From positions 1-64,000 of the forward strand of contig OMWE01000011.1 in NCBI GenBank assembly GCA_900314685.1: 64,000 bases of DNA, written 5' to 3'. The notes under the pieces are model-generated. The model worked only from the letters and a program-made list of their open reading frames with translations. It ran no database searches and was not told where the DNA came from. The DNA is from an uncultured Actinomycetes bacterium (GTDB lineage: Bacteria > Actinomycetota > Coriobacteriia > Coriobacteriales > Atopobiaceae). This document shows positions 41,031 through 43,097 of the stretch, in pieces; the stretch's first letter is position 1; the number at the start of each line of letters is the position of its first letter. A program made the translations under genes and the position numbers.

Positions 41031-41079
41031 ATACCCGATGCGTACATTTTGCGCACGTCTGTTTTGGGGGGCACCGAAT

Positions 41080-41856
41080 ATGATCAAATCCGTCTTCCTC
41101 GATCTGGACGGCACGCTCTACGACACCGCGGCGCAATGCGTCCCGGCGTCCGCCCTGCGCGCCGTGGCAGGGCTGCATGCGCGCGGCACGCGTGTCTTTG
41201 TCGCCAGCGGCCGCCACATGAGCGAGCTGCACGGACTGCCGCTCGACGCGCTCGCCTTCGACGGCATGGTGCTCACCAACGGCTCGGTCTGTGTGGACGC
41301 GTCAGGCACGGCGTTTTACGAGGAGCTGATTCCCCGCGAGACGATCAACGACCTCGCCAACGAGATGGAGCATGACTTCTTCTCCTGCCAGTTCTTCGAG
41401 CCGACGGAGTCCCATCTCGACTTCGTCGACGAGGACGTGGCGCGGGCCTGCAATCTGGAGCATCCACTCGGGATCGACCAGCTCCATCGGGTCCGTGAGC
41501 TCGATATCTGCCAGGCGGTAGCCTTTGCAAATGAGGCTCGCGTGCGCGCCTTTGCAGCCGCGCATCCCGAGGTCGTTGTGACCTCATGGGCACCCAGCTG
41601 CTACGACATCGTCCCCGCACAGGCCGGCAAGGTCCGCGGCATCCGCGAGATGCTTCACCACTTCGGCCTCGACGGCGACGAGTGGCTTGCCGTCGGCGAC
41701 GGAGAAAACGATCGTGAGATGCTGCGCGCGGCGACCTACGGTGTCGCGATGGGCAACGCCGACGAGCGCTGCAAGGCGGTCGCCGACTATGTGACCGACG
41801 GCGTCGACAAGGACGGCCTGCTCAACGCCTTCGTCCACTTTGGGCTGATCGCATGA
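41080..41856 (+). CDS. Cof-type HAD-IIB family phosphatase
   Basis: ATG 41080 begins MIKSVFLDLDGTLYDTAAQ, with both Asp of motif I (D8, D10). VFVASGRHMSEL holds motif II, and WLAVGDGENDREMLRAATYGVAMGNADERCKAVADYVT holds motifs III and IV. The 258-residue length and the central cap fit HAD-IIB sugar-phosphate phosphatases. The TGA stop overlaps the ATG of the next gene, so the two are translationally coupled. Expression may depend on the structured leader and palindromes just upstream. Confidence 0.9.
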   Translation: MIKSVFLDLDGTLYDTAAQCVPASALRAVAGLHARGTRVFVASGRHMSELHGLPLDALAFDGMVLTNGSVCVDASGTAFYEELIPRETINDLANEMEHDFFSCQFFEPTESHLDFVDEDVARACNLEHPLGIDQLHRVRELDICQAVAFANEARVRAFAAAHPEVVVTSWAPSCYDIVPAQAGKVRGIREMLHHFGLDGDEWLAVGDGENDREMLRAATYGVAMGNADERCKAVADYVTDGVDKDGLLNAFVHFGLIA

Positions 41857-43097
41857 TGGACGGCCAGGAAGGCAGGCCGATGGCAATCCGAGCAGATAAA
41901 CGCCTCTCTGAAGACAAACGTCTCTCCACGGACGTTCAACCATCCGTAGACAAGCGTCTCTTCTTGGCGCTGCTGCCGGATGCAGCGGCGCGCGAAGCCC
42001 TCGTCGCCACGCAGGAGCTCGTGACACCGCACCTCGCGAAGCCGAAGCCCACTGCGCCGGGGAATCTGCACATCACACTCGCCTTCCTGGGGATGTGCGA
42101 CGCCCGGCAGGAGGCAGCTGCCGCACGTGCGCTCGAGGAAGCCGCCGCGCAGTGCGCTCCTTTCGACATCGCGCTCGGCACGCTTGGCTGCTTCGAAAAG
42201 AAGCGCGGCGGCTCAATCGTATGGCGCGGGGTCGACGGCGATACCGATGCCCTCCACACCCTGCACGATACGCTCGTAGATGCGCTGGTAGACGAGGGGT
42301 TCGACCTTGAGGGCGGTCCGTACATCCCCCATATCACGCTCTTTCGCGGCGCCCGGCCGGTCACCGCGGCAGGTGCCGAGGCGGGCGTTCCTCTCACCGA
42401 GACCCTCTATGACCTCGGTGGGCGGCTCGGCGACAATCTGACGCCCTGGCCCGTGCGAGCCGCAAGCCTCATGTGGAGCCATCGCCCCGAGGACACCGGT
42501 CTTCTTACCTACGACGAGATCGCACGCGTCGAGCTGGCGGCTGCGGATAACGCCACCGCAGGCGATGCCGCCGCAGGCGATAATGCCACCCAGGCCGGCA
42601 CCCGACCCCACTCTCGCACGCTCTTCATCGACGCGGACGCCTGCCCCGTGACGCGCGAGGCGATCGACTGCGCCCGCAAGGCCCACATGCCTGTCGTGAT
42701 TGCAGGCAACACCACGCAGAACCTCGAGCATCACATACGCCCCGATGATCCCCGTAGGCGTGAAGACGCACGGCGCAGCTTCTGGGTCGACACGCTCGAT
42801 GTGAGCATCGGCTCCGACAGCGCCGACTTTGCCATCGTCGAGCGCCTCGCGCCGGGAGACGTCGTCGTGACGCAGGACATCGGTCTCGCGAGCATGGTGC
42901 TCGGGCGCGGCGGTACAGCCATTGGCGTCCGCGGCCACATCTACCGCCGCGAGACCATCGACTCCGCCCTGCTCATCCGCCACGAGGAAAAGAAGGTCCG
43001 TCGCGCCGGCGGCCGCACGGGCGGACCCGCGAAGTTCACGGGAGAGGACCGCCGCCGCTTCGTGCGCAACCTCATGCGCATCCTCCGCGGGGAATAA
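41853..43097 (+). CDS. RNA 2',3'-cyclic phosphodiesterase (ThpR-like) fused to UPF0178/YaiI domain
   Basis: Residues about 34-225 form a 2H phosphoesterase: NLHITLAFLG with H73-x-T75 and PYIPHITLFRG with H160-x-T162, the paired HxT motifs of ThpR/LigT. A low-complexity Ala/Asp/Asn linker (about 228-252) leads to a UPF0178 domain: TLFIDADACPVTREAIDCARK, WVDTLDVSIGSDSADFAIVERLAPGDVVVTQDIGLASMVL and GRTGGPAKFTGEDRRRFVRNL. Each is normally a separate protein of 150-190 residues. The N-terminus has DKRL repeated three times. The start overlaps the HAD stop (ATGA). Confidence 0.87.
   Translation: MMDGQEGRPMAIRADKRLSEDKRLSTDVQPSVDKRLFLALLPDAAAREALVATQELVTPHLAKPKPTAPGNLHITLAFLGMCDARQEAAAARALEEAAAQCAPFDIALGTLGCFEKKRGGSIVWRGVDGDTDALHTLHDTLVDALVDEGFDLEGGPYIPHITLFRGARPVTAAGAEAGVPLTETLYDLGGRLGDNLTPWPVRAASLMWSHRPEDTGLLTYDEIARVELAAADNATAGDAAAGDNATQAGTRPHSRTLFIDADACPVTREAIDCARKAHMPVVIAGNTTQNLEHHIRPDDPRRREDARRSFWVDTLDVSIGSDSADFAIVERLAPGDVVVTQDIGLASMVLGRGGTAIGVRGHIYRRETIDSALLIRHEEKKVRRAGGRTGGPAKFTGEDRRRFVRNLMRILRGE

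Follow-up and report, generated by a model that had tools for sequence, protein, structure and literature searches.

Apparently recurrent joining of a LigT domain to DUF188 in Coriobacteriales suggests that DUF188 (UPF0178) works on RNA

An open and complete frame in a 64,000-nucleotide stretch of an Atopobiaceae draft genome (2.35 Mb in 57 contigs), hereafter called the window, raises the question of why a 2H domain of the LigT (ThpR) type resides in one polypeptide chain with a DUF188 (UPF0178) domain, and what this joining may tell us about DUF188. Both families are known already. To our knowledge, the YaiI/YqxD family is widespread but has yet to be given a function, and what ThpR/LigT does in the cell is likewise described as open in the excerpted text of PMC5283653. 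A literature search, with subscription papers and architecture databases lying outside its scope, yielded no paper on a fusion of, or a link between, LigT and DUF188. A fusion that is selected and recurs names a testable partner for both YaiI/YqxD and ThpR/LigT, and a single small protein with named candidate catalytic residues offers itself for RNase, cyclic phosphodiesterase and RNA-binding tests.

Table 1. The LigT-DUF188 fusion gene, its domains and motifs, and its upstream neighbour (positions in the window)
Feature	Position	Strand	Remarks
LigT-DUF188 fusion ORF, 414 aa	41853..43097	+	open and complete frame
2H / LigT (ThpR) domain, residues 35-226	41955..42530	+	Pfam and TIGR02258; domain end from alignment of fusions
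First HxT motif, H73-I-T75-L-A-F78	42069..42086	+	H73, T75 and F78 invariant in five fusions, present in the sixth too
Second HxT motif, H160-I-T162-L-F-R165	42330..42347	+	H160 and R165 invariant in five fusions; T162 replaced by Ser in 2 of 6
Variable linker, residues 227-253	42531..42611	+	high dN/dS compared with the domains
DUF188 / UPF0178 domain, residues 254-412	42612..43088	+	Pfam DUF188 110.6 bits (gathering cut-off 24.3; aligned residues 311-412); model pLDDT 94.0
Acidic signature S-A-D325...V-V-V-T-Q-D342, also seen in NYN/YacP nucleases	42819..42878	+	every one of 64 DUF188 rows has Asp at D325 and D342
HAD hydrolase gene, upstream neighbour	41038..41856	+	4-base overlap with annotated fusion start; conserved with the fusion only as far as G003

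The first-pass annotation had proposed that LigT and UPF0178 share one chain and are connected by a low-complexity linker, and both proposals are borne out: the two domains exceed their Pfam cut-offs within the frame, the active-site motifs are complete, and the linker, at about residues 227–253, is rich in Ala, Asp and Gly. The LigT half lies far above the gathering scores of LigT_PEase (55.8 bits) and 2_5_RNA_ligase2 (63.7 bits; residues ~43–179), and with TIGR02258 (RNA 2',3'-cyclic phosphodiesterase) the protein scores 88.2 bits and passes the NCBIfam cut-off of 65.7. The DUF188 half displays the DADACPV, SADFAI and VVTQD blocks of YaiI/YqxD (UPF0178, DUF188, COG1671) in the form F-I-D260-A-D262-A-C-P-V, S-A-D325-F-A-I and V-V-V-T-Q-D342. 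Unlike YaiI and YqxD, it is the C-terminal part of a fusion, carries an insert typical of the order, and remains below the cut-off of 139 for the YaiI/YqxD equivalog NF001095 (128.1 bits; 125.0–131.2 bits for the five other fusions described below), so that we do not claim one-to-one equivalence with YaiI or YqxD. The insert, located between strands 2 and 3 (window 42735–42779), is found in Coriobacteriales DUF188 independently of the fusion, and the Pfam DUF188 match starts at about profile position 28 in Coriobacteriales versus 2–5 in most f12 genomes; the insert probably explains the low NF001095 scores.

Translation probably starts at M10, the ATG at 41880, rather than at the annotated start. 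The former is favoured by a GGAAGG-like site preceding it and by the closest relative aligning an in-frame Met-Ala there, and the ATG at 41853 is disfavoured because it shares bases with the stop codon of the HAD gene before it and lacks a GGAAGG-like site. In the N-terminal extension (window 41895–41960) a stretch coding for DKRL, ADKRLSEDKRLSTDVQPSVDKRL, occurs three times; it is absent from the other Atopobiaceae fusions and looks like a recent small duplication.

The fusion is not confined to the window. It was found in five of 140 Atopobiaceae genomes, that is, in G000 (the window), G003 (80% identity), G316 (65%), G001 (59%) and G004 (57%), of which G000, G001, G003 and G004 make up four of the five sampled genomes of the window's genus; the fifth, G002 (82% complete), gave no match to either half. 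G316 is assigned to a different genus (g7), the other sampled members of which lack the fusion. Across the order, six of 395 genomes encode it, the sixth being G264 (family f2, genus g85), which matches the fusion profile over positions 10–381 of 382 (E 2.9e-95); G778, the only other sampled genome of genus g85, gave no match. Among the matches listed from 396 genomes of the phylum there was no further protein spanning both halves, and in a search of genome contigs one of the best 80 of 533 relatives was a fusion. A named isolate of the family, Atopobium sp. oral taxon 810 str. F0209 (Coriobacteriales), carries the fusion (L085), and the genes neighbouring the G001 locus (G001:C32; L003/L194) match a contig of this strain at 100%. 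Copies on mobile elements did not come to light: none of 121 matching plasmid and 13 matching phage records reached 80% query coverage. In most relatives, LigT and DUF188 are separate, unlinked genes. Recurring in other genomes, the fusion escapes the objection of the first-pass annotation, which would have considered it probably accidental if it were unique to this assembly and split in all relatives. G000, G001, G004, G316 and G264 each yield a single match for LigT and for DUF188, and G003 yields one match in all; the fused gene thus appears to be the sole copy of either domain.

In all six fusions, both domains exceed their Pfam cut-offs and TIGR02258 is above its own (79.4–105.5 bits). 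All six likewise retain HxTLxF, followed some 60 or more residues later by HxT/SxxR, along with DADACPV, DxADF and TQD. The LigT half thereby resembles ThpR/LigT of E. coli (5LDI), for which His43 has been described as proton donor, Phe48 as stacking on the base, His125 as activating water and Arg130 as binding the phosphate (excerpted text of PMC5283653); these four residues correspond to those of the HxT motifs in the fusions. It differs from E. coli LigT, a standalone protein of 177 residues, in being joined to DUF188, and the Atopobiaceae LigT type found in the window forms a separate branch. In the DUF188 half, all 64 rows have D325 and D342, and nearly all have D370; an alignment of 50 rows shows full conservation of D260 and D262 as well, and close to full conservation of D322 and D370. 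A pairwise comparison of G000 with G003 (NG86) puts dN/dS at 0.15 over the 186 codons of LigT and at 0.07 over the 157 codons of DUF188, against about 0.6 over 16 linker codons, and the corresponding values for G001 and G004 are 0.11, 0.08 and 0.6. Purifying selection holds both halves, and the linker drifts. Of the 52 LigT rows in all, 48 exhibit both the HxTLxF and the HxT/SxxR pattern, the exceptions being L176, L177, L026 and L190. The last two (in G010 and G218 of genus g7) are standalone LigT proteins that lack a regular HxTLxF/HxTxxR pair, lie on a long branch and are possibly degenerate; genus g7 thus holds both these copies and the G316 fusion.

How often the two domains were joined is a question for which the LigT trees are the more informative. 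The five Atopobiaceae fusions group together in a 33-row tree (85/65) and in a 52-row tree (90/91), and the G264 LigT, which has a fairly long branch (1.12), is located across a 100/96 split from them, along with standalone LigT proteins of f2, f4 and f6 and of one f1 genome (G008). A tree constrained to keep the six LigT halves in one clade, a group defined by being fused and not by the tree, is rejected (p-AU 2.8e-5, 52-row tree), so that either the pairing was made twice or the LigT half was replaced. Two LigT lineages are thus found N-terminal of DUF188, and these relatives appear to have joined LigT and DUF188 more than once. The less informative DUF188 tree unites the five fusions with weak support (79/57) and places G264 apart from them in the best tree; an earlier, smaller DUF188 set left the five ungrouped, yet did not reject them as one clade (p-AU 0.25). 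Rather unlikely, in our view, is a history in which a single ancestral fusion took place and the LigT half of G264 was replaced later. Such a history accords with the DUF188 halves, for which a tree uniting the six is not rejected (p-AU 0.32), and has against it both the separate position of the G264 DUF188 and the company that the G264 LigT keeps among standalone proteins. Two fusions, or one fusion and a replacement, are in either case stronger evidence of a functional link than one accident would be, with the second lineage represented by a single draft genome, G264. In the tree of the earlier DUF188 set, which has no outgroup root, L005 and L006 of family f10 branch inside a group of sequences from the Atopobiaceae (f1) genus g4, which hints at a transfer between the two families.

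The fusion gene is encountered in four different neighbourhoods. In G000 and G003 the order is GH1, HAD, fusion, SDR and a Cys/Met enzyme; in G001 and G004 the neighbours are a putative amidohydrolase and a putative aminotransferase, and in G316 a putative peroxiredoxin; in G264 the gene lies a few kb from MTHFR and from a gene of the beta-lactamase fold, the latter scoring below the family cut-off. A conserved operon is rejected, given that these neighbours differ, and so is a precursor of two tandem genes: LigT adjoins none of 157 DUF188 loci and DUF188 none of 28 LigT loci, as counted in flanks of about 1.5–6 kb, some of which end at contig ends, with a few genes entered under two locus ids. 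In 296 genomes, both families are present in 120, DUF188 only in 41, LigT only in 76 and neither in 59 (naive Fisher p 0.0013), but the order rows outside the family run the other way (both 28, DUF188 only 32, LigT only 41). Since the Fisher test is uncorrected for phylogeny and the association is unsupported in those rows, co-occurrence is kept out of the evidence.

What kind of domain, then, is DUF188? The first-pass annotation had ascribed to UPF0178 a PIN-like fold. The pattern of aspartates agrees with this, and the same has been stated in print for YqxD, whereas the structural match to PIN/NYN domains is only weak. The model of the window's DUF188 domain, an alpha/beta fold, is of high confidence; in the full-length AlphaFold model the LigT half is unusable, with pLDDT mostly under 60 at a depth of two rows. 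A Foldseek search of the DUF188 model against the PDB returned nothing at E <= 0.001; the NYN endoribonuclease Rae1/YacP of B. subtilis ranked fifth (E 8.1e-3, TM 0.37), with unrelated Rossmann-like folds scoring alike. In VIA-align, Rae1 (5mq9) occupied rank 21 with a Z-score of 7.8 and an r.m.s.d. of 3.0 over 95 residues, where a Z-score under 8 may reflect a common arrangement only; the top rows were assorted Rossmann-like folds, and Rae1 was the sole PIN domain among the 50 rows listed, which does not tell against a PIN-like fold. A sequence search of the PDB matched LigT structures and no DUF188 structure.

At the sequence level, the window's DUF188 has a signature in common with NYN/YacP endoribonucleases such as Rae1, namely [ST]ADxxI and, further on, a VVTxD-type end, and the aspartate pattern of PIN/NYN domains is present with D260/D262 at the end of the first strand, D322/D325 around the middle AD, and D342 in TxD. 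The signature occurs in 13 of 30 YacP ORFs, 30 of 64 DUF188 rows and none of 86 controls (isochorismatase, PIN and response-regulator ORFs), these ORFs having been taken as the longest across the middle of each locus on the listed strand, a choice that may err in some rows and therefore in the counts. All 98 of the 5663 ORFs that contain the pattern [ST]ADxxI...VVTxD are DUF188. The pattern was picked after the sequences had been seen, and its value is more that of a lead than of a test. With hmmscan, NYN_YacP was found in three of 64 DUF188 rows (best E 0.0031), PIN_9 in three (0.17) and, among other weakly matching families, Isochorismatase in five (0.0057). Profile-profile comparison with hhalign revealed no significant link of DUF188 to YacP or PIN from shallow and partly poor alignments; with the ORFs chosen in the same fallible way, and with 25 of 30 rows left in the final alignments for YacP, 22 of 28 for PIN, 6 of 30 for isochorismatase and 1 of 28 for response regulators, neither this comparison nor its controls carry much weight.

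According to the excerpted text of PMC12456014, which cites Matelska (2017), YqxD contains a PIN-like domain, and the idea as applied to DUF188 is thus not new. The text also refers to an effect on sporulation of a mutation in the yqxD gene (P23), reportedly described by Zuberi and Doi (1990). The same excerpt lists YqxD in the RNA-bound proteome of sporulating B. subtilis, and our literature search yielded no report of an activity for any DUF188 protein. PIN/NYN domains possess an acidic active site, and the metal-dependent nucleases among them employ water and metal (excerpted text of PMC6294520). The first-pass annotation had further conjectured that UPF0178 acts on RNA; its pairing with two LigT lineages, a NYN/YacP-like acidic signature, and YqxD among the RNA-bound proteins (excerpted text of PMC12456014) lend support to this candidate function.

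The recurrent pairing with an RNA-end enzyme suggests that DUF188 works on RNA, and we infer a coupling of the two halves. The reading that we favour, though with somewhat less than an even chance, is that the fusion is a two-domain enzyme for the processing of RNA ends, the 2H and the PIN/NYN-like halves of which act on the same RNA. The 2H domain is predicted to hydrolyse RNA 2',3'-cyclic phosphate ends, i.e., the blocked ends that arise from metal-independent RNases, and for DUF188 the prediction is a metal-dependent domain of the PIN/NYN-like kind, with RNA binding and probably also RNA cleavage as its activities. The tethered protein would locate RNA fragments with blocked ends, hydrolyse the cyclic phosphate and cleave further upstream, thus releasing a free 3'-OH, from which ordinary exonucleases could complete decay or at which the RNA could be repaired. 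PIN-type cleavage yields a 5'-phosphate and a 3'-OH, so that the cyclic ends used by the 2H half should not come from its partner. On chemical grounds a simple relay in which the PIN half passes its product to the 2H half is unlikely, for 3'-OH ends are of no need to the latter; instead, both halves would work in parallel on one RNA, with the blocked fragments supplied by other RNases. The fully specified proposal, in which UPF0178/DUF188 is a NYN-type metal-dependent endoribonuclease, the ThpR 2H phosphodiesterase is its partner, the two jointly clear RNA ending in cyclic phosphate, and they were fused more than once in Coriobacteriales, is unlikely to be right in every part.

The two-domain reading has to be weighed against a fusion that is neutral or matters for expression level, in which a rearrangement put two single-copy proteins with no relation to each other, with roles in RNA metabolism or housekeeping, into one reading frame, both being retained for their separate usefulness and with no mechanical coupling between them. 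We regard this as slightly less probable than the two-domain reading and take it seriously: the fusion is rare (six of 395 order genomes) and patchy, its linker sequence is unconserved, unfused LigT and DUF188 are not found as neighbours, and their co-occurrence, weak in the 296 genomes, is reversed in the order rows outside the family. Such a neutral history fits less well with two LigT lineages having both come to lie N-terminal of DUF188 in the same orientation, and with a gene that stayed intact while its neighbourhood changed. A further rival, which we hold to be improbable, would have DUF188 bind RNA without any catalysis of its own and so bring the 2H phosphodiesterase to its RNA, as might be expected from the report of YqxD as RNA-bound, with no RNase activity mentioned in that excerpt (PMC12456014); the nuclease-like aspartates D325, D342, D260 and D262 are, however, invariant, and a pure binding domain could dispense with them. 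That several of the genomes are drafts might finally point to an artefact of assembly or frame, for which there is next to no chance considering that the fusion occurs in six genomes, four neighbourhoods and one named isolate and is under codon-level purifying selection across the frame; for Atopobiaceae, an artefact is refuted for practical purposes.

Two observations concern DUF188 copies elsewhere in the sample. Three genomes (G232, G349 and G734) contain DUF188 twice each, and in G099 (G099:C2:206445-207044) it is present in two overlapping pieces in different frames, which represents a frameshift or an assembly error.
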